From Nitrosarchaeum sp. (GTDB lineage: Archaea > Thermoproteota > Nitrososphaeria > Nitrososphaerales > Nitrosopumilaceae): DNA of 7,367 nucleotides. The notes beneath the pieces are model-generated. The model saw only the letters and a list, made by a program, of their open reading frames with translations, was not told the origin of the DNA and made no database searches. Position numbers and translations under genes: made by a program. Below, piece after piece: positions 1-7,367 of this stretch. Numbering within the stretch: position 1 is the stretch's first letter; the number at the start of each line of letters is the position of its first letter. Location: contig JACRND010000118.1 in assembly GCA_016234975.1 (NCBI GenBank), positions 1-7,367 on the forward strand. Direction: 5' to 3'.

Positions 1-2
1 AA

Positions 3-587
3 TCTCCAAAAGACATTACAGACTATTACAAGCATCTTTCCTTATTCTGGACAGATATTATCCATCTAATGGCAAGCAAACCGCAGGCCTTGACTTCGAT
101 GGGTCCTATGCGTGCATTTGCTTCAAATTCAAAGAAAATCTCAACAGAACTAATCCAAATTAATGAGAGTCTAATGGAATTTAACAAATTTGTAACAGAG
201 TACTATAAACAGTTATCAGAAACTTGGAGTGAGGCACAAAAGAAAGTCAATCTAAAAGCACCTGACGTGCCACATGATGTAGAACAAATGGAGTCATTTA
301 AGAGAATATGGATAGATATTTTTGATAATGATTTTACAGAATTATTTGATTCGGAAAAGTTTGGAGAGAATTATGGAAAACTGGTTTCAAAAGAGCTTGA
401 ACTTACAAAACATTGGAATAATATTTCAAATGTGATTTTACAGTCAGCAAACTTGCCAAGCAAAGAAGAAATTGATGAAGTGTATAAAGAGATACATGCT
501 CTAAAAAAAAGAGTGACAAAATTAGAAATTGAATTAAAAAAGAAAAGAGATACAAAAAGTGAGGGGAATATAAAAAATGAAAAGTGA
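3..587 (+). CDS. phaE: Class III PHA synthase subunit PhaE, 5'-truncated by the window edge
   Basis: PhaE is the non-catalytic partner of class III PHA synthases; it forms the active complex with PhaC on the surface of the growing storage granule. The frame is open from base 3 with no stop, and the codons before the first ATG (position 69) read like protein (DYYKHLSLFWTDIIHL), so that ATG is probably internal and the true start lies outside the window. About 194 residues are visible. The protein is helical. The stretch from FKRIWIDIFDNDF through FGENYGKLV and SANLPSKEEIDEVYKEI matches the usual PhaE C-terminal pattern, a conserved helical part followed by a Lys/Glu-rich coiled coil (EIHALKKRVTKLEIELKKK). 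The stop overlaps the phaC start by 11 bases, implying cotranscription and coupled translation. The pairing with phaC makes the call firm; the N-terminus cannot be judged. Confidence 0.88.
   Translation, partial: SPKDITDYYKHLSLFWTDIIHLMASKPQALTSMGPMRAFASNSKKISTELIQINESLMEFNKFVTEYYKQLSETWSEAQKKVNLKAPDVPHDVEQMESFKRIWIDIFDNDFTELFDSEKFGENYGKLVSKELELTKHWNNISNVILQSANLPSKEEIDEVYKEIHALKKRVTKLEIELKKKRDTKSEGNIKNEK
561..566 (+). promoter_or_regulatory. Shine-Dalgarno site of phaC inside phaE
   Basis: GAGGGG lies 10 bases before the phaC ATG, within the last codons of phaE. It supports the ATG at 577 and translation of phaC from a shared phaE-phaC message. Most first genes in this window show no such site. 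Confidence 0.6.
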
Positions 588-1641
588 ATCAAAATTTGAC
601 CCTAAACTCATAGAGGATATGATAAAATTTGGCAAAAACATTATGGATGCGCCTAAATTAGTTTCAGCCCCAGATGAAATTAGTCTAGAAGTAACTCCTC
701 ATGACATAGTACAAGAAATAGATAAAACAAGATTATTGCATTACAGACCACTTACAGAAAAACAACACAAAACACCATTATTGATTTCATATGCGTTGAT
801 TAACAGATATCATATTTTGGATATACAACCAGAAAAAAGTTGGGTTAGAAATTTACTATTGCAGGGATTTGATGTGTATATGTTGGATTGGGGAACGCCT
901 ACAAGTATGGACAAGTATTTAGATTTTGATGATTATGTTAACGGGTATTTAGATAGCAGTGTGGAATTTATCAAAGATGAGTCATCTACAGAAAAAATAT
1001 CATTGCAAGGATATTGTACTGGAGCTACAATAGCAACAGCATATGCAACACTGCATCCAGAAAGTGTAAAAAATTACATTGCGACAGCACCGGTAATTGA
1101 TGGATGGCGAGATACTACCGTAATTAGCAATTTAGCAAAGCATATGGATGTAGATAAAATGGTGGAAGTCATAGGAAATATGCCTCCTGAATTCATGTAT
1201 TATTGCTTTTCAGTACTAAAACCATTTGAGCAAGGAATTGAAAAATACGTAAATTTTTTCAAAAACATTGAGAATAAAAAATTTGTAGATAATTTCTTAA
1301 GAGTAGAAAAATGGCTGGGAGACACACCACCAATACCAGGCGAGCTTTTCAGACAATGGATCAAAGACATTTATCAGGACAACCTGCTAATTCAAAATAA
1401 AATGTATGTTGGTGGAAATCACATAGATTTAAAAAAAATAGACATGCCATTATTCACACAAGTTGCAGTCGGAGACCACTTAGTATCGCCAGAATGCAGT
1501 ATGCCCCTTCATTATGCAGTTGGAAGTGAAGACAAAACACTGAAGATGTATCCAACAGGTCATGTAGGCATGATTGCTAGTTCATTATCTCAAAACAAGG
1601 TACTTCCAGAATTAGGAAAGTGGCTTGCAGAAAGATCATAA
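577..1641 (+). CDS. phaC: Class III poly(3-hydroxyalkanoate) synthase catalytic subunit PhaC
   Basis: PhaC polymerises hydroxyacyl-CoA into polyhydroxyalkanoate with release of CoA, acting with PhaE at the granule surface. The 354-residue length is typical of class III PhaC and shorter than class I/II enzymes. It is an alpha/beta-hydrolase fold with the lipase-like box GYCTGA, in which Cys147 replaces the serine of lipases. Asp300 (in VAVGDHLVSP) and His329 (in PTGHVGM) complete the triad; the spacing agrees closely with the Allochromatium vinosum enzyme as I recall it (149/302/331). DVYMLDWGTP and APVIDGW are further family signatures. The ATG at 577 is preceded by GAGGGG (561-566) within phaE, which supports this start and coupled translation. 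No phaA or phaB is visible. In thaumarchaea the monomers could come from the 3-hydroxypropionate/4-hydroxybutyrate cycle, an inference not shown here. Confidence 0.95.
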   Translation: MKSESKFDPKLIEDMIKFGKNIMDAPKLVSAPDEISLEVTPHDIVQEIDKTRLLHYRPLTEKQHKTPLLISYALINRYHILDIQPEKSWVRNLLLQGFDVYMLDWGTPTSMDKYLDFDDYVNGYLDSSVEFIKDESSTEKISLQGYCTGATIATAYATLHPESVKNYIATAPVIDGWRDTTVISNLAKHMDVDKMVEVIGNMPPEFMYYCFSVLKPFEQGIEKYVNFFKNIENKKFVDNFLRVEKWLGDTPPIPGELFRQWIKDIYQDNLLIQNKMYVGGNHIDLKKIDMPLFTQVAVGDHLVSPECSMPLHYAVGSEDKTLKMYPTGHVGMIASSLSQNKVLPELGKWLAERS

Positions 1642-1666
1642 AATAAAAAGATAAAAAATGAAAATT
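1642..1666 (-). terminator. Likely T-rich archaeal terminator of the phasin-like operon
   Basis: The 30-base gap between the convergent phaC and phasin-like genes is A-rich on the + strand. On the - strand it therefore reads as successive T runs (CATTTTTTATCTTTTTATT) just after the phasin stop codon. Runs of T without a hairpin are the usual intrinsic termination signal in archaea. The + strand has no comparable T run in this gap, so phaC transcripts may read into the phasin-like gene in antisense. Assigned from composition and position only. Confidence 0.45.
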
Positions 1667-1671
1667 TACCA

Positions 1672-2097
1672 CTAGTTGTTCTTTGTGGTGAATGCGGATA
1701 TCCAGGATTGTAGAATATTTCTGTTTAGATCAGCAAATGATTTTGCGTTGTCATTGAATGTTTTGATGTTTTGTTGTGTTGCATCGATTGTTGCAAGTGT
1801 TATTTGGTTCTGTATTGAAGCTGCTTTAACAAATTCTTCGGTAGTATCATGAATTACTTTTAGTGTTGCTTGTGGAATGTTAGCTGCAATACCTGCTTTC
1901 TTTGCATATTCTTTTTGTAATGTGATTGTAGAATCAATAACATTTTCATATGCTTGTAGGTATTCTTGTTGAACATTTGTAATTGACTGATGATATTGTG
2001 GTACTGAATGTCTAATGCCGGAGAATAGTTTGTCTACGTTTTCCTGATAAACTGAAAACACATCTTTAGTTCCTGGTGTTTGTTCGTTTTTACTCAT
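1672..2097 (-). CDS. Small phasin-like granule-associated protein
   Basis: A 141-residue protein with no cysteine and no signal peptide or membrane segment. It appears almost wholly alpha-helical and is rich in Gln, Asn, Ala and Thr. Long amphipathic stretches (NVQQEYLQAYENVIDS, TTEEFVKAASIQNQ, IDATQQNIKTFNDNAKSF) resemble phasins, the small amphiphilic proteins that coat PHA granules and control their size and number. A proline (residue 75, in AANIPQATLK) may separate two helical hairpins. Position supports the role: it is the distal gene of an operon whose first member carries an AbrB domain, and it converges on phaEC. The ATG overlaps the upstream stop as ATGA and is preceded by a perfect Shine-Dalgarno sequence, suggesting strong translation, as suits an abundant coat protein. 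The function is inferred from composition and context; phasins are poorly conserved and no catalytic residues are expected. Confidence 0.7.
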   Translation of the reverse strand: MSKNEQTPGTKDVFSVYQENVDKLFSGIRHSVPQYHQSITNVQQEYLQAYENVIDSTITLQKEYAKKAGIAANIPQATLKVIHDTTEEFVKAASIQNQITLATIDATQQNIKTFNDNAKSFADLNRNILQSWISAFTTKNN

Positions 2098-2519
2098 TGT
2101 TTCACCTCCTTATTTTTCGATTTTTTTGCTATTGGAAGGACTATGACTTGAACCAAGTCGCCCTCTCCTAATCCAAGTGCATTACGCTCTGCCTCTGGAA
2201 TCGAAATTCTGCCATTACTACTGACAGTTGTTTTGTAAGCGCCCCAATTCATAAAAGATGGGAGCATTTGGCCAATCTGAAACATGGTCTCCATGCTTTT
2301 GCTTTGCATAGAAGACACATTCTTCATCAAATCAGATTGGACATTTCGTGTATTGTCAGATACTTCTTTTAGAGTTTCTAAAGGATTGAATGTTTGAGTA
2401 TTCTGGTTTGTCATCAACGAACCAAAGTTTTTCATAAATTCAGCTTGTGCACGACCATTTTTTTGAATCCAATCTTTGAACATCTCTGTAGGATTAAATT
2501 GGTTATAATTACCGCTCAT
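2094..2519 (-). CDS. Phasin-like protein with C-terminal SpoVT/AbrB DNA-binding domain
   Basis: A 141-residue protein of two parts. Residues 1-90 are helical and amphipathic, Met- and Asn-rich (MFKDWIQKNGRAQAEFMKNF, SDLMKNVSSMQSK), and resemble phasins or PhaE-like helices. Residues 95-130 match the swapped-hairpin SpoVT/AbrB fold: TTVSSNGRISIPEAERNALG, then LGEGDLVQVIV. A basic tail follows (KKSKNKEVK). AbrB-type domains dimerise and bind DNA. In haloarchaea, as I recall, PHA clusters carry the AbrB-like regulator PhaR next to a separate phasin PhaP; here one protein may combine granule binding with repression and release the DNA when granules form. That mechanism is inferred. It is the first gene of a pair with the phasin-like gene (4-base ATGA overlap) and has its own TATA box. 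An alternative is that the AbrB fold only mediates oligomerisation. Confidence 0.78.
   Translation of the reverse strand: MSGNYNQFNPTEMFKDWIQKNGRAQAEFMKNFGSLMTNQNTQTFNPLETLKEVSDNTRNVQSDLMKNVSSMQSKSMETMFQIGQMLPSFMNWGAYKTTVSSNGRISIPEAERNALGLGEGDLVQVIVLPIAKKSKNKEVKQ
2102..2111 (-). promoter_or_regulatory. Perfect Shine-Dalgarno site of the phasin-like gene
   Basis: On the - strand the sequence reads AAGGAGGTGAAACAATG, where the last three bases are the phasin-like start codon. AGGAGGTGA is fully complementary to the canonical 3' end of 16S rRNA (UCACCUCCU). GGAGG ends 7 bases before the ATG, which is ideal spacing. The site also encodes the final Lys-Glu-Val-Lys-Gln codons of the upstream AbrB-fusion gene, so both functions are packed into the same bases. 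Confidence 0.85.
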
Positions 2520-2520
2520 T

Positions 2521-2540
2521 GGTAACAGTTGGAATTAGTT
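2521..2540 (-). repeat. Two 10-bp direct half-repeats over the predicted transcription start; possible operator
   Basis: Between the TATA box and the ATG the - strand reads AACTAATTCC then AACTGTTACC. These are adjacent 10-mers identical at 7 of 10 positions, spaced about one helical turn apart. Their position would let a bound protein block transcription, and the first gene encodes an AbrB-type DNA-binding domain, so autoregulation is conceivable. The repeat is short and AT-rich and could be chance. Confidence 0.25.
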
Positions 2541-2542
2541 GA

Positions 2543-2550
2543 CATATAAA
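2543..2550 (-). promoter_or_regulatory. TATA box of the AbrB-fusion/phasin-like operon
   Basis: On the - strand TTTATATG lies 24-31 bases before the ATG at 2519. Transcription should therefore start at or within a few bases of the ATG, giving a leaderless message; no Shine-Dalgarno sequence precedes this ATG. The box lies in the 36-base gap after the hydrolase gene, so the two downstream genes probably have their own promoter even if hydrolase transcripts read through. Confidence 0.6.
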
Positions 2551-2555
2551 TGAAA

Positions 2556-3347
2556 CTAGTGTAAAAGAAATTCTAAAGATATAGACGAAAAGGCATCAGG
2601 CTCTTGGACATATGGAGTATGACCACATCCATCCATTATATGAAATTGGCAATCTTTGATATAAGACGCAAACCATTCTGCATGCTGAATTGGAATAACG
2701 GGATCTTTGGAACCCCAGATTATCAGAGTAGGACTCTGAATCATATGCAGTTTAGGTGTGATGATCTCTGAATTTTTCAGTCCTAAAACGGTAGACATGA
2801 ATGCTAATTTTGCATTTGGCAATTGCATTCGTTCAATAAATCCCTGAACGATTACATTGTCAACTTCATTGCCAGAAGATTCCATTAGCTCAAATGCATT
2901 TTTAGCACTTTGTTCATTTGGATACAATGCAGCCATTATGTAAGCATCTAATGCCGGAGTAGATTGCTTCATTGCACCTGCAGGAGATACAAGAATTAAT
3001 TTTTCTACATCGTTGGGATTTGTAGATGCATATTCTGCAGCTATTTGACCGCCTAAAGAAGAACCAATTACATTTGGACGTTTGATTCCTAAGACATCAA
3101 AGAAATCCCCAAGAAATGTTGAAAAGAAATTAGGGGTATAGTCTACAATCGGTTTATCGCTGTAACCAAATCCAATCAAATCAGGAACTATCACATGATA
3201 ATGTTTTGCAAAATTAGGAATTACATTATTCCATCTCTCAGCAGATGCCCCCAATCCATGAACTAGTACCAAAACATTTTTGGAGTCTCCAGACTCTAGA
3301 TACCTAATCTTATTTCCATCCACTTGAATGAAATTTTCTTGCACCAT
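2556..3347 (-). CDS. Alpha/beta-fold hydrolase, candidate PHA-related esterase or depolymerase
   Basis: A 263-residue cytoplasmic alpha/beta hydrolase with a full catalytic apparatus. The oxyanion-hole motif is VLVHGLGAS (residues 27-34). The nucleophile elbow GSSLGG carries Ser97, the acid is Asp215 in WGSKDPVIP, and the histidine is His243 in DGCGHTPYVQEP. Residues about 125-190 form a helical cap. Length and motifs fit the broad esterase/BphD/MhpC-like group, which includes C-C bond hydrolases, esterases and some medium-chain PHA depolymerases; substrate cannot be read from the sequence. It lies directly upstream of the phasin-like genes on the same strand, 36 bases away, which makes a role in granule turnover plausible but unproven. 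There is no signal peptide. The ATG at 3347 has no Shine-Dalgarno site, in line with a leaderless message, although the TATA candidate (CTTAACTA, about 3369-3375) is weak. Confidence 0.85.
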   Translation of the reverse strand: MVQENFIQVDGNKIRYLESGDSKNVLVLVHGLGASAERWNNVIPNFAKHYHVIVPDLIGFGYSDKPIVDYTPNFFSTFLGDFFDVLGIKRPNVIGSSLGGQIAAEYASTNPNDVEKLILVSPAGAMKQSTPALDAYIMAALYPNEQSAKNAFELMESSGNEVDNVIVQGFIERMQLPNAKLAFMSTVLGLKNSEIITPKLHMIQSPTLIIWGSKDPVIPIQHAEWFASYIKDCQFHIMDGCGHTPYVQEPDAFSSISLEFLLH

Positions 3348-3389
3348 TTTAGCTTCGATTATTTAGCTAGTTAAGTTTAGTTACTATTA
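3348..3389. repeat. Three tandem 14-bp units next to the hydrolase start codon
   Basis: The + strand reads TTTAGCTTCGATTA, TTTAGCTAGTTAAG and TTTAGTTACTATTA in direct succession, so TTTAG recurs exactly every 14 bases. Units 1 and 3 agree at 11 of 14 positions, and units 1 and 2 share TTTAGCT. The array abuts the hydrolase ATG (- strand) and covers its expected TATA and transcription start. It could be an operator or a chance AT-rich pattern. Confidence 0.35.
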
Positions 3390-3449
3390 CCGATCAGTTA
3401 TTTTTATTGCTTTTCTAAATTTTCACGCATGTGACAAGAGAGACCATGT

Positions 3450-3457
3450 TTTTTAAG
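3450..3457 (+). promoter_or_regulatory. Candidate TATA box of the universal stress protein gene
   Basis: TTTTTAAG lies 21-28 bases before the ATG at 3478, at the spacing seen for other leaderless genes here. It is a less typical TATA sequence than the others, so the assignment is tentative. It lies in the 130-base divergent region shared with the hydrolase gene. Confidence 0.4.
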
Positions 3458-3477
3458 ATCTAAATAGAAGATATGAT

Positions 3478-3912
3478 ATGATAGATAAAAAAATCAACAA
3501 AATTCTGGTTCCATTGGATGGTTCCAAAAATTCTATGCGTGCGCTTGAGATGGCCATATCAATAGCAAAACAGTTTGGAGCCACAATTACTGGCGCCTAC
3601 TCAATTAACATACAGCCACATTCAGAGTTTCAAGGAGTGATCGCAGTAAACAAAGAATTAGATAATGAAATAAAAAAAATAATGATCAATGCCAAAACAT
3701 TATCAGCACAAAACGGCACAGTCTTCAAAGAAAAACTGATGCGTGGAGATACAGGATATAATCTCATAAAATTGGCTCATGATAAAAAAGAAAAATTTAA
3801 CCTAATTGTGATGGGTTCACGGGGAAGAAGCGCAGTAAGAGAGATATTCTTAGGTAGTGTTTCAAACCATGTCATTCATTCATCAAAAATTCCAGTACTC
3901 ATTGTAAAATGA
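3478..3912 (+). CDS. Universal stress protein, UspA family, ATP-binding type
   Basis: A 144-residue single-domain universal stress protein, the usual length for the family. The N-terminal strand KILVPLDGSKNSMRAL carries the conserved Asp14, and the C-terminal part has the nucleotide-binding motif G-2x-G-9x-G-S (Gly113, Gly116, Gly126-Ser127 in VMGSRGRS and FLGSVSNHVI), so it belongs to the ATP-binding subgroup. It closes with the typical strand IPVLIVK. Such proteins dimerise in the cytoplasm and act in stress and energy-state responses; the specific role cannot be read from sequence. The gene diverges from the hydrolase and converges on msrA with only 2 bases between stop codons, so the two messages must overlap at their 3' ends. 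Start: the ATG at 3478 is favoured; an ATG 5 bases earlier is out of frame and meets a stop at once. Confidence 0.93.
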   Translation: MIDKKINKILVPLDGSKNSMRALEMAISIAKQFGATITGAYSINIQPHSEFQGVIAVNKELDNEIKKIMINAKTLSAQNGTVFKEKLMRGDTGYNLIKLAHDKKEKFNLIVMGSRGRSAVREIFLGSVSNHVIHSSKIPVLIVK

Positions 3913-3914
3913 TC

Positions 3915-4370
3915 TTAAGATAGTCCGTGTTTCTGAAAATATTTTTGATGATATTCTTCAGCTTTGTAAAACTCTGGAGCCGGGATGATTTCAGTTACAA
4001 TACGTTTTGGAAATTTTCCTGATTTTTCTAATTCTTCTTTTGATTTTTGGGCAATTTTTTTTTGTTCTTCATTATGAAAAAATATTGCAGAGCGGTATTG
4101 ATTCCCGATGTCAGACCCCTGTCGATTTAGCGATGTGGGATCGTGATTACTCCAAAATACTTTGAGTAATTCATCATAAGAGATCTCATTTGGATCATAG
4201 TCTACTTGAACTGCTTCGGCATGACCAGTTGTATCAGTACAGACTTCTTCATAAGTTGGATTTGCCAATTTACCTCCAATGTAACCTACTTGTGTTGATT
4301 TTACACCTTTAGTTTTACGGAGTAGATCTTCGACGTGCCAGAAACATCCTGCACCAAATGTAGCTTTCAT
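3915..4370 (-). CDS. msrA: Peptide-methionine (S)-S-oxide reductase MsrA
   Basis: MsrA reduces methionine-S-sulfoxide in proteins and free methionine, repairing oxidative damage in the cytoplasm. The 151-residue protein opens almost directly with the active-site motif GAGCFW, making Cys9 the nucleophile. Other family landmarks follow: [16 protein letters not shown] with Glu52, [20 protein letters not shown], and [13 protein letters not shown]. Only one other cysteine exists, Cys44 in [10 protein letters not shown], and the C-terminal recycling cysteines of E. coli-type MsrA are missing. Regeneration may therefore use Cys44 or direct reduction by a thioredoxin-like partner (inferred). The absence of an N-terminal extension is normal for compact prokaryotic forms. 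The ATG at 4370 has a TATA-like box 24-30 bases upstream and no Shine-Dalgarno site, indicating a leaderless message. In an ammonia oxidiser the gene fits repair of damage from reactive oxygen and nitrogen species. Confidence 0.96.
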
Positions 4371-4393
4371 AATTTGAATAAAAATTTTATCAG

Positions 4394-4400
4394 ATTAAAA
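4394..4400 (-). promoter_or_regulatory. TATA box of msrA
   Basis: On the - strand TTTTAAT lies 24-30 bases before the msrA ATG, the position expected for a leaderless archaeal transcript. The 76-base gap to the next gene upstream contains no other clear element. Confidence 0.5.
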
Positions 4401-4446
4401 CTATTTGGTCAGCAGCAATAAGTTCAAAGATTGTGGTTACAATTAG

Positions 4447-5277
4447 TTATTCAATTTCAATGATTTGGTTTTCAATTAGATATTCCAAAGAATTCACAAA
4501 TTCTTGTTGTGAAATCAGATCATTTGCCCACCAATCAGCATTGTTTCGTATCCAATTTGGAATGTTAGCGACGTAATTTTGTTCAGAATACTGCAAGTTC
4601 GGAATGACAATTATGTGATGTTCTAGCATGAAATCCAATCCTGTGATAAATTCAGAGTCAGGCATATCACCTGTGGCCCACATTTCAGCATATGTCTTAA
4701 TCCAGTCAGGAACATATGTTGAGAAACCCAATATGTCATAGATGGATTTGTCAGGAAATTGAGAGTCAAACCAAGACTTGTAGTTAGGTTCGTTGTTGTA
4801 TCTGTCAATATAATATTGAGGAGAACGGTCTAGAGAAGGAAAGTCAGGTATTCTCAATTTAGGATTTTCAATAAATGATTGATTTGAAGTATCAATTGGT
4901 GCAGTATTTTTGGAATTCACAGATGATTTTTGATAGGAAAATGTTTTTTCAAGGTTTCCACCATACGATACTTTGATTATATAAGTACCATCATCAGGCC
5001 ATGTAGGTCCACCCACACGAAATGTAGTAGAAAAAGAACCATCGGATTTTGGTAAGACATTTGCAATTCCAGCAAGACTAGTTCCTTCAGGAGTAATTAT
5101 TTGCAGGATTACAGAGGGGATTACAGGATCATAGTTTACAGTACCTGAAATTTTAAGAGTATCACCATCATGATATATCGATTTATCTGTAGAAAAATTT
5201 TGAATAGAGCCAAACACGGAAATAAAATTACCAGATACAAGTAAAATTGAAAATAAAATTAGAAATTGTCTAATCAA
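4447..5277 (-). CDS. Exported thaumarchaeal protein: Ig-like domain plus two Trp-rich C-terminal repeats
   Basis: A 276-residue protein with a Sec-type signal peptide (hydrophobic residues 4-22, likely cleaved near VFGS), so it acts outside the membrane. Residues about 25-118 are beta-rich (DKSIYHDGDTLKISGTV, DGTYIIKVSYGG) and resemble an Ig-like or macroglobulin-type fold. A Ser/Asn-rich linker follows, then a segment about 153-185 with YYIDRYNNEPNYKSWF, a pattern I recall from other thaumarchaeal exported proteins. The C-terminus has two copies of a roughly 38-residue repeat (189-226 and 239-276), each with P-x-W-I, an Asp/Glu-x-W core, an acidic turn and a final LxxxxII. The same repeat occurs in the exported protein at 5878. 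The start is TTG: no ATG or GTG exists between the upstream in-frame stop and the signal peptide, and a TATA box sits 24-30 bases before it. Function unknown; surface adhesion or substrate binding is possible. Confidence 0.8.
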   Translation of the reverse strand: MIRQFLILFSILLVSGNFISVFGSIQNFSTDKSIYHDGDTLKISGTVNYDPVIPSVILQIITPEGTSLAGIANVLPKSDGSFSTTFRVGGPTWPDDGTYIIKVSYGGNLEKTFSYQKSSVNSKNTAPIDTSNQSFIENPKLRIPDFPSLDRSPQYYIDRYNNEPNYKSWFDSQFPDKSIYDILGFSTYVPDWIKTYAEMWATGDMPDSEFITGLDFMLEHHIIVIPNLQYSEQNYVANIPNWIRNNADWWANDLISQQEFVNSLEYLIENQIIEIE

Positions 5278-5300
5278 CGCAAGAATAAAAAATTAGGACG

Positions 5301-5307
5301 TATTAAA
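5301..5307 (-). promoter_or_regulatory. TATA box of the exported Ig-like protein gene
   Basis: On the - strand TTTAATA lies 24-30 bases before the TTG at 5277. It supports that TTG as the start of a leaderless message. A T-rich run between the box and the start (about 5283-5290) could also end transcripts of the gene upstream. Confidence 0.55.
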
Positions 5308-5332
5308 GAATTTGCCAGATAGTGAGGAATTT

Positions 5333-5695
5333 CTAATTAACATTGGTAAAAATTTTAACTACTTTCTTGGCCAAATTTTCAATGTTGGCAGATGGTTCTG
5401 CAGAGATTAAAAGAAGAATTTGAGTGATAGGAAATGGGAAGCTTACCAAGACTGCCTTGTCGCGCCTTGCCGCAATGTAATTAATCGGACCCAAACTTTG
5501 ATCATATTCTTTTCTAATCGAAGCTTTTGATACAAATTCCAAAAAAGAGTGCAATCTAGTTTCATCGCCCTCATAAGGTACAAGTCCTTCTTTAAAACCA
5601 CCAGCAATTAGCTTTCCATCTTTATCTACAATTCCTGCAAATCTAATTTCAGGCTCTTTGAGGATCTGGGAACATTTTTCATTGTAAAGTTTCAA
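5333..5695 (-). CDS. Small cytoplasmic thaumarchaeal protein, possibly DUF6659/roadblock-like
   Basis: A soluble protein of about 120 residues without signal peptide or membrane segment. The pattern IRFAGIVDKDGKLIAGGFKEG, then a helical segment (LHSFLEFVSKASIRK), LGPINYIAARRDKAVLVSF and a strand ILLLISAEP suggests an alternating alpha/beta fold of the roadblock/profilin type. It resembles small thaumarchaeal proteins that I tentatively place in DUF6659; no catalytic motif is evident. The start is uncertain, because the frame has no ATG back to the stop at 5825. TTG codons at 5695, 5719 and 5776 are possible. I chose 5695 because it gives MKLYNEKCSQ, the usual helical beginning just before the IRFAG strand. 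The start at 5776 would add 27 aromatic-rich residues but has a TATA-like TTTTAATT 23-30 bases upstream. The gene diverges from the exported protein at 5878. Function unknown; a sensor or scaffold role is only a guess. Confidence 0.65.
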   Translation of the reverse strand: MKLYNEKCSQILKEPEIRFAGIVDKDGKLIAGGFKEGLVPYEGDETRLHSFLEFVSKASIRKEYDQSLGPINYIAARRDKAVLVSFPFPITQILLLISAEPSANIENLAKKVVKIFTNVN

Positions 5696-5846
5696 GGTAG
5701 CGTTATTTTGCGAAGACAACGGAATATGGTCAACATACCAAAAATAAAAACTTAGCCAAGGATACAGATTTATCAAATTTGTTGGAACACTCTTATGAAT
5801 TAAAATTCCGCATTGGTCATCAAGTTAAGAGAATTTCTACAAGTAA

Positions 5847-5853
5847 TTAATAA
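5847..5853 (+). promoter_or_regulatory. TATA box of the exported six-cysteine protein gene
   Basis: TTAATAA lies 25-31 bases before the ATG at 5878, which an in-frame TAA immediately precedes. The spacing predicts a leaderless message starting at or next to the ATG. Confidence 0.55.
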
Positions 5854-5877
5854 GTGAAAAATGAGAAACAGAACTAA

Positions 5878-6975
5878 ATGAGATTGACAGTATTGATGTT
5901 TCTAGTAATAATAGCAGGAGTAATTGGAATTGCGGCATTTGGAGTACCTAGTGCATTTGCACATGACCCAAATTTTGAGGTAAAAACCCCAAAAGATATT
6001 CTAAAATTTTGTGAGTTTTTTTATGACGAATATGTTCTCATGGGAGCAGAAAAACTTGCCGAAGTGCATCAGAATTATCCAAATCTCAGAGCATGTGGAA
6101 TTTTGTACAATCATGTAGCTTGGAAAAGTACGCATCCAGCAAGAGATAAAGTGTTAGTTGCAGAGATTGAAAAATATCTTGGCGATGCCAAATACATCAA
6201 AGAAAGACATGTGAGAAGTTCCAACATAATGCCAGAGTGGATAAAAAATGACGCAAAAATGTGGGTAAGAGGAGAAACTAAGGATACGTTATTTGCATAT
6301 GGAATTAGAACAATGTTAGAAGATCATATTCTAAATCCATCTTTGAACAACACTGACAGAAACTGTGAAGAAACTAAACTGTGTATTACAAAATCAGATT
6401 TCATGAAATATTCATACTCTAACAATTATGTCCAAGATATTACAGAAACATACACGGTGGATTCAATTAGCGATGATGGAATTTTAATGAAAATAGAAAA
6501 AATTTCGAAGGGTGGAAAAGAGTTTACAAATATCAACATTGACAATCGTGGAACAATTCTGACAAATAAGAAATGTTGTGTAATAGATAAATTCATATTT
6601 TTAACTCCAATTAATTTTGGAGATATGATTACCGCAGATTTGAAAGTAATAGGGGAGACATCATATGAATTAAATAATCAAACACGTCAAGTGTGGATTG
6701 CACAAAGTTCAGAAAAACAAGACACGTTAATTATCGATAAAGAAACAGGACTGGTGTTCTCAGACAGTCATAAAAAAACAGACATAATAACTAAATGGGA
6801 AAAAATAGAATTGATAGACACTAATATTTTTGAGAAAAAATATCTAGCAGATGAACTTGTCATACCAAAATGGTTTAAAACAATTACAATGTGGCTACTA
6901 GACAATTTGATTTCAGAATCAGAATATCTAAATGCAATAGAAAATTTATTGGAACGTGGAATCATTCGTGTCTAA
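5878..6975 (+). CDS. Exported thaumarchaeal protein with six cysteines and two Trp-rich repeats
   Basis: A 365-residue protein with a clear Sec signal peptide (hydrophobic residues 4-24, probable cleavage after AFA before HDP at 28/29). The mature N-terminal region (about 35-110) is helical and has Cys45 and Cys73. A first Trp-rich repeat (118-152, MPEWIKNDAKMWVRGE... to MLEDHIL) follows. Residues about 163-315 contain Cys163, Cys169 and the adjacent Cys233-Cys234 in a beta-strand-rich region with regular turns (DNRGTILTN, DKETGLVFSDS). A second, more divergent repeat (329-365) closes the protein. Six cysteines outside the membrane suggest disulfides. The C-terminus has no membrane anchor and no sorting motif. 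The ATG is fixed by the in-frame stop just before it and by a TATA box. The gene converges on the methyltransferase with one base between stops. I do not recognise the central domain; function unknown. Confidence 0.82.
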   Translation: MRLTVLMFLVIIAGVIGIAAFGVPSAFAHDPNFEVKTPKDILKFCEFFYDEYVLMGAEKLAEVHQNYPNLRACGILYNHVAWKSTHPARDKVLVAEIEKYLGDAKYIKERHVRSSNIMPEWIKNDAKMWVRGETKDTLFAYGIRTMLEDHILNPSLNNTDRNCEETKLCITKSDFMKYSYSNNYVQDITETYTVDSISDDGILMKIEKISKGGKEFTNINIDNRGTILTNKKCCVIDKFIFLTPINFGDMITADLKVIGETSYELNNQTRQVWIAQSSEKQDTLIIDKETGLVFSDSHKKTDIITKWEKIELIDTNIFEKKYLADELVIPKWFKTITMWLLDNLISESEYLNAIENLLERGIIRV

Positions 6976-6976
6976 T

Positions 6977-7367
6977 TTAGATCCGACATTTTAGAACAAC
7001 ATAATCAATAATTTTTTGTTCAGATGCCTTTTTCATTTTAAGAATAGATGTGTAGAGTATTTTTTCGACATATTTTGGATACTTTTGTAATATGGATTTT
7101 TTTAATTCGTCTCGGTGTTCAATATAGTAATTTGCCAGTGGATCATAGACATTTTTACCAATTAATTTCTCATTCTGAATTGTAAAACCGTTAGACATAA
7201 CAAGTTTTCTCACATGTTCTAATCCATAATGCTCTGAGGACCAAGTAAATTTCAGAATTCCTAATTTCACAAAAGATGCGCTTGGAAGAGTCACAGGCAA
7301 TGCCAAGGTCAGTATTCCGTTTGATTTTAAAATTCGTTTTGATTCTGAAATAAAATCTTTCAGAGGT
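6977..7367 (-). CDS. C-terminal part of a class I SAM-dependent methyltransferase, cut by the window edge
   Basis: The reading frame stays open to the right edge of the window, giving about 129 visible residues; the SAM-binding N-terminal half lies outside. The visible start LKDFISESKRILKSNGILTL followed by ALPVTLP is the usual pattern around strand 5 of UbiE/Methyltransf_11-type enzymes (a helix ending in R-x-L-K-x-x-G, then a hydrophobic strand). SSEHYGLEHVRKLVMSNGFTI matches the later helix and the G-F turn before the last strands. A Lys-rich helical tail follows (DELKKSILQKYPKYVEKIL). A TTG at 7306 could be taken as a start, but the upstream codons clearly continue the fold, so it is internal. 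The substrate cannot be inferred without the N-terminus and the neighbouring genes. Confidence 0.72.
   Translation of the reverse strand, partial: PLKDFISESKRILKSNGILTLALPVTLPSASFVKLGILKFTWSSEHYGLEHVRKLVMSNGFTIQNEKLIGKNVYDPLANYYIEHRDELKKSILQKYPKYVEKILYTSILKMKKASEQKIIDYVVLKCRI

Follow-up and report, generated by a model that had tools for sequence, protein, structure and literature searches.

In bacteria, PhaR of the Ralstonia type binds DNA at phasin genes as well as PHA granules, and it is titrated by the granules. The closest described archaeal system is that of the haloarchaea. According to the accessible part of a review (PMC9049629), haloarchaeal PhaR binds DNA, responds to PHA and autorepresses phaRP, the promoter of which contains four tandem repeats, and its homologues carry an AbrB-like domain at the C-terminus; a second review, in the part available, places both PhaP and PhaR on the granules (PMC7137286). 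The Haloferax mediterranei PhaR (Cai et al. 2015) is compared here by way of these two reviews and a third one (PMC10948481), each available in part. Concerning ammonia-oxidizing archaea (AOA), the accessible text of one study has the PHA synthase acquired by their ancestor (PMC7554672), and that of another describes probable PHA granules in Nitrosopumilus maritimus (PMC11082331). In the latter, AOA genomes were searched for the KEGG PhaR term K24257, and the portion available gives six named PHA genes for N. maritimus, with PhaR not among them. A thaumarchaeal PhaR or phasin regulator is unnamed in the titles and displayed abstracts returned by literature searches, most subscription papers being outside reach.

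The locus analysed here lies in a stretch of 7,367 nt from Nitrosarchaeum sp. (GCA_016234975.1, contig JACRND010000118.1, positions 1 to 7,367), referred to in the following as the window. A 141-aa open reading frame on the minus strand (2094..2519), here called phaR, sits between a phasin-like gene, phaP (1672..2097, minus strand, 141 aa), and an alpha/beta hydrolase gene directly upstream (2556..3347, minus strand; PF00561, 120.6 bits). The phaP-phaR pair is convergent, tail to tail, with two PHA synthase subunit genes on the plus strand, namely phaE (3..587, cut by the window start; PF09712, 47.3 bits, cut-off 25.7) and the class III phaC (577..1641; TIGR01836, 412 bits, cut-off 365.3). phaR and phaP overlap by 4 bases, and GGAGGTGA precedes phaP. 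The initial annotation had taken 2094..2519 to encode a real protein in a PHA island, and the 141-aa frame, the adjacent phaE, phaC and phaP and the conservation in relatives bear this out. The hydrolase matched no specific NCBIfam model at cut-off among the matches listed; it is possibly a depolymerase.

The profile of the PhaR set A4 aligned with the haloarchaeal PhaR set over 103 columns, at profile positions 1-135 (hhalign 99.9%, 1.3e-35), a score raised by three shared rows, as set A4 was a mixed one of 22 thaumarchaeal and 3 haloarchaeal rows. With the window PhaR alone as query, tblastn found haloarchaeal PhaR first (4e-9, 38% over residues 34-138); most of the identity between the two is carried by the AbrB part. 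In the sequence set, row L065 begins at an internal Met and row L045 is a partial protein. A plasmid match to H. mediterranei phaC was set aside, not being the phaRPEC locus, and H. larsenii and Haladaptatus were used instead. On this profile evidence, the gene 2094..2519 is the thaumarchaeal counterpart of haloarchaeal PhaR, with near end-to-end homology. The same shortened C-terminal AbrB-type domain follows a preceding segment in both, phaP lies directly downstream in both, and both promoters have TGGTA/TACC sites in 10-bp phase, whereas phaEC is downstream in haloarchaeal loci and convergent in thaumarchaea.

This homology also bears on how the protein had been described. Its fusion, and the order with AbrB at the C-terminus, had been called unusual, and this novelty of architecture fails because haloarchaeal PhaR has AbrB at the C-terminus too, in an identical order (PMC9049629, accessible part). 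Nor does the supposed division of the job between PhaR and PhaP in haloarchaea hold: in the parts of the reviews available, haloarchaeal PhaR is itself DNA-binding and PHA-responsive (PMC9049629) and found on granules (PMC7137286). What is new is the predicted operator shared across phyla and the candidate second target described below; the fusion is not, since proteins of this kind have been described before.

The AbrB-type domain (2127..2237, minus strand) covers approximately residues 95-131. A SpoVT/AbrB domain had been proposed in the initial annotation for residues 95-130, and the profile search found it at residues 96-127, where the curated AbrB model TIGR01439 scored 32.4 bits (E 5.5e-8; cut-off 28.3). 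PF04014 reached 24.5 bits, 0.2 short of its cut-off of 24.7. Because both matches stop at model position 32 (TIGR01439 1-32 of 44, PF04014 2-32 of 48), PhaR lacks the final part of a standard AbrB unit, which we take to be its last strand. This shortened unit is common to all 25 aligned thaumarchaeal and haloarchaeal members. The family profile matched the solved chain 2glw at 2.1e-10, and PhaR shares with SpoVT/AbrB proteins of this kind the GRIxIP...R core and a GDxV segment, but in PhaR the domain breaks off after some 35 residues and is joined to a helical segment belonging to the PHA island. Regarding the structure model, which is weak as a whole (pLDDT 58.4, pTM 0.28), residues 91-130 are the more confident part (block means 75-82). 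In a Pfam scan at E <= 1, only MazE_antitoxin, GAT and AbrB-like models matched, with no bacterial PhaR model among them. The presumed logic of granule titration would be shared with bacterial PhaR of the Ralstonia type, but the thaumarchaeal DNA-binding domain is AbrB-type.

In the N-terminal part, helices were predicted at residues 10-37 and 46-91 (weak model), and the segment is amphipathic (maximum-moment p 0.025 and 0.026 compared with shuffles). When residues 8-37 were aligned with residues 44-73, the score was 52, compared with 21.8 +/- 4.4 in shuffles, none of the 2000 reaching 52. The N-terminus is a tandem-duplicated unit of about 30 residues (2301..2498, minus strand), predicted to be helical. 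In five other genera, the same test gave 0 of 2000 shuffles in three and a weaker result in L069 (8 of 2000); in L084 the duplication is unsupported (313 of 2000). The N-termini of PhaR are much shorter in family f3 and in haloarchaea, and the doubled unit in the window's family is a difference from haloarchaeal PhaR.

The first 90 residues had been likened to a granule-coat protein. The helical and amphipathic character stands, and PhaR resembles the phasins (Pfam Phasin_2, haloarchaeal PhaP) in both respects and in belonging to the same operon. It differs from them at the profile level: hhalign gave 1.3% with the neighbouring thaumarchaeal phasin family and 3.3% with haloarchaeal PhaP, neither being a match, and the Pfam scan of PhaR showed no phasin family. 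The N-terminus as a phasin homologue was rejected on these comparisons. In the case of the phaP family itself, Phasin_2 was matched by 3 of 15 members (best 1e-4), ApoLp-III by 3 and DUF2937 by 8, and the window's own phaP matched no phasin model in Pfam, so that a phasin identity is weakly suggested by these models. The structure model of the phaP product shows two long helices (pLDDT 64.1). A homology between the thaumarchaeal phasin and haloarchaeal PhaP was considered and dropped, as no profile match was obtained (3.8%).

In a class sample of 400 genomes, 245 had a PhaR match (E <= 0.001) and 252 a PhaC match (E <= 1e-40). Both occurred in 237 genomes, PhaR alone in 8 (with three weak matches among them, E 3e-6 to 6e-4), PhaC alone in 15 and neither in 140; the 15 of 252 PhaC genomes with no PhaR match count against the mechanism proposed below. 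In a phylum sample of 300 genomes, PhaR matches above 26 bits were confined to families f1, f2 and f3, and those outside the window's order were all under 26 bits; the class sample adds members in families f4, f5 and f12. The PhaR-bearing families are probably ammonia oxidizers, because the named close homologues come from Nitrosopumilus and Nitrosarchaeum.

At the level of single loci, tblastn detected phaR in 77 of 79 thaumarchaeal loci, with L067 and L068 as the exceptions. Of these 77 loci, some of which end at contig ends, 66 have a convergent phaC no more than 1.5 kb away and 52 have phaP next to phaR. A search of named genomes matched 442 stretches, 339 of which were relatives, and the best 80 were kept. 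By record title these come from salt-loving archaea, except for two labelled as bacterial MAGs; phaP follows phaR in 74 of the best 80 and phaC in 76. The two MAG contigs with a haloarchaeal-type phaR, L115 (Salinivenus) and L146 (Ectothiorhodospiraceae), are perhaps misbinned. These neighbourhoods bear on the question of whether the protein could be an ordinary AbrB/MazE-type antitoxin or a general AbrB regulator, placed beside pha genes by chance, as the curated domain matches are AbrB/MazE models. A toxin-like partner is absent, one genus after another shows pha genes and the hydrolase as neighbours, and the phylum sample gave those low scores outside the order; we find this explanation hardly credible.

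The initial annotation had pointed to 2519-2560 as the DNA target, and a predicted operator and a TATA box at 2508-2550 agree with this proposal. The TATA-box-like TTTATATG (2543..2550, minus strand), conserved in relatives, lies approximately 24-31 bp before the phaR start, and the transcript is predicted to be leaderless. The predicted operator (2508..2534, minus strand) is composed of TTCC (2534-2531) and TTACC (2525-2521), 10 bp apart, and of GGTAAT (2513-2508), an inverted arm inside phaR; of the half-sites in the window, the one nearest the TATA box is degenerate. In family f1, the phaR upstreams show a TATA box and then C-C half-sites, spaced at 10 bp (one helical turn), as far as the start codon.

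In the 100-bp upstreams of the best 80 haloarchaeal-type loci, TGGTA occurred 123 times compared with 15.0 (maximum 26) in 200 shuffles, and 50 pairs with a spacing of exactly 10 bp were counted compared with 0.015; in the phaR upstreams of 16 thaumarchaeal genus representatives, 23 WWWCC pairs at 10 bp were counted compared with 0.3 (maximum 3, 1000 shuffles), and TACC 28 times compared with 10.2, all of these figures overstating the significance because the upstreams share common descent. Zero 10-bp pairs were present in 150 control upstreams taken at the same loci (abh 68, phaE 19, usp 28, msrA 12, phaC 23), and phaP upstreams had 5 phased pairs in 54. The site pattern continues inside phaR as an inverted arm, as shown by the codon bias of Gly3: GGT is used in 45 of 48 f1 phaR genes starting x-x-Gly-Asn, compared with 34% for later glycines, and in 13 of 15 genus-representative genes. 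The TACC/GGTA core in 10-bp phase is common to haloarchaeal and window-family phaR promoters. The position differs, the haloarchaeal repeats standing before the TATA box and the thaumarchaeal sites spanning from TATA box to start codon; since they cover phaR over this whole region, the latter suit a block.

A second target is suggested by phasin paralogues away from phaR. Of the 151 family genomes, 125 gave phasin matches, and this genome has two, one on contig C79 (the window) and one on contig C15. Such an additional, unlinked phasin gene with sites is a further difference from haloarchaea. The 30 best unlinked phasin loci are on another contig than phaR or more than 140 kb away, and 29 of them had enough upstream sequence. 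One or more pairs of TACC or of GGTA spaced by 10 bp were present in 26 of the 29, this genome included, and altogether 49 phased pairs were counted compared with 0.3 (maximum 3, 500 shuffles), to be read with the same reserve.

Genomes were also searched with a start-codon-anchored pattern (12 genomes), with three TGGTA in 10-bp phase and up to 2 mismatches (18 genomes), and with two half-sites plus TATA box and up to 1 mismatch (14 genomes). The number of matches is uninformative because reversed patterns also gave many (17 compared with 21, 174 compared with 100 and 17 compared with 14, respectively); the support for the operator comes from where the matches lie. With the start-codon-anchored pattern, only phaR matched in this genome, and across the 12 genomes 6 matches were at phaR and 15 elsewhere. 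Perfect triple repeats were seen in G015, where the match is a simple repeat, and in G022, where it lies some 540 kb away from phaR and immediately precedes the TATA box of an unlinked phasin paralogue. In family genus g9, the matches of G160, G213 and G322 (1-2 mismatches) stand before phaP, which has its own promoter there. With half-sites plus TATA box, 11 of 14 matches are just before the unlinked phasin, and the only match in this genome (C15:2460-2484) precedes the phasin at 2508-2933. The other three have a different core, TACCGTAC..TACCGTAAT. One of these, in G022, sits before a trpE-like ORF and was rejected as a third PhaR target. This TACCGTACTATACCGTAATTATATA (L213, approximately 1975-1999; G022 C1:827674-827698) has similar counterparts in two related genomes and is possibly the operator of another regulator.

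In archaea, the position expected for an activator is immediately before the TATA box, and this is where the repeats are placed at unlinked phasins and at haloarchaeal phaR promoters; PhaR might accordingly activate, not repress, the unlinked phasin gene. However, the haloarchaeal repeats occupy this position as well, and the Haloferax protein is presented as repressing phaRP (PMC9049629, accessible part); moreover, the thaumarchaeal phaR sites overlap the start. We regard activation as unlikely.

Family f3 is an exception regarding the sites. Its PhaR proteins (L043-L064) are short, with about 100 aa, and 16 of its phaR upstreams contain no 10-bp pair and 0.31 TACC/GGTA per sequence, a count that includes L043, a locus with an in-frame stop and a wrong script-assigned start that is also counted among the 77 thaumarchaeal upstreams. 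By tblastn, no phaP homologue lies beside phaR at f3 loci, and among ORFs of at least 60 aa around three f3 sites (L174, L175, L176) no phasin was seen by eye. Triple-repeat operators in f3 were discarded as candidates, since over the 18 genomes the pattern gave fewer matches than its reversed control, as mentioned above. Tandem promoter repeats are a trait seen in the window's family and not seen in family f3.

That f3 has PhaR and no such sites at phaR could mean that some other DNA-binding protein reads the phased sites, PhaR being a granule protein with a different DNA target or none. Several observations argue against such a division. The site core and the 10-bp phase are common to both lineages that have PhaR next to phaP, the phaRP promoter repeats are tied to PhaR in the accessible part of the review (PMC9049629), and 26 genomes of the family gave no phasin match, of which the 20 listed all fall outside the set with PhaR. 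A separate reader appears quite improbable to us.

What the sequences show is homology to haloarchaeal PhaR, the phaR-phaP order, a joint occurrence with PhaC, and phased sites both in front of phaR and in front of a distant phasin-like gene. We consider it likely that PhaR represses phaR-phaP and the unlinked phasin-like gene via 10-bp-spaced TACC/GGTA sites and is drawn off by PHA granules, and the best reading of the protein would be that of a one-molecule sensor for granule and DNA. PhaR would occupy the phased half-sites of both phaR-phaP and the second phasin gene and block them. Its helical part would bind the surface of new granules, this binding would draw PhaR off the DNA, and the coat protein would then be made in step with the polymer. 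For the binding of phased sites by PhaR, the repression, the granule binding and the titration signal, this scheme would follow Haloferax mediterranei PhaR as presented in the accessible parts of the reviews.

In bacteria, PhaM or PhaF hold PHA granules to the nucleoid, and PhaR might in the same manner mainly tether granules via its AbrB domain, with little transcriptional effect. Such a tether would use the same two presumed binding activities, and in a Haloferax phaRP deletion, phaR by itself is enough to bring back PHA accumulation, with no need for PhaP (PMC9049629, accessible part). Phased sites are nevertheless present at the phaR and phasin promoters and at none of the control genes, and tethering as the main role seems improbable. 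With PhaR as a granule-titrated repressor, a broader picture can be drawn, which we judge to have an even chance. One sensor and one DNA code (TACC/GGTA every 10 bp) would serve haloarchaea and ammonia oxidizers; in marine-type ammonia oxidizers the helix would have been doubled, the operator placed over the phaR start as an inverted repeat in the Gly3-Asn4 codons and an unlinked phasin added, resulting in a two-phasin granule regulon with a single reader.

Next to the six PHA genes named for N. maritimus, the present analysis places PhaR in 237 of the 252 class-sample genomes that have PhaC, and adds a site pattern indicating candidate targets. The control of carbon storage in ammonia oxidizers can thereby be tested with a single purified protein and a pair of short DNA probes, and for haloarchaeal PHA work the predicted operator is more sharply defined.

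Some further observations concern the window and its relatives. A GATCG/CGATC element at 3391-3395 (minus strand) stands before the hydrolase gene, and it is also found in phaE upstreams in L072-L088. It was counted in 16 of 19 phaE upstreams, often as GCGATCTATTTATTGCGATCT, and in 35 of 68 hydrolase upstreams; the other upstreams gave 6 of 77 (phaR), 1 of 28 (usp), 0 of 12 (msrA) and 0 of 23 (phaC). It may indicate that phaE and the hydrolase are under another regulator. Two proteins with no significant Pfam match, encoded at 4447-5277 and 5878-6975, have in common W-rich C-terminal repeats of the type IPxWIKxxAxWWxxDxI...LExLIexxII, and a DUF6659 protein (PF20364, 73 bits) is encoded at 5333-5776.
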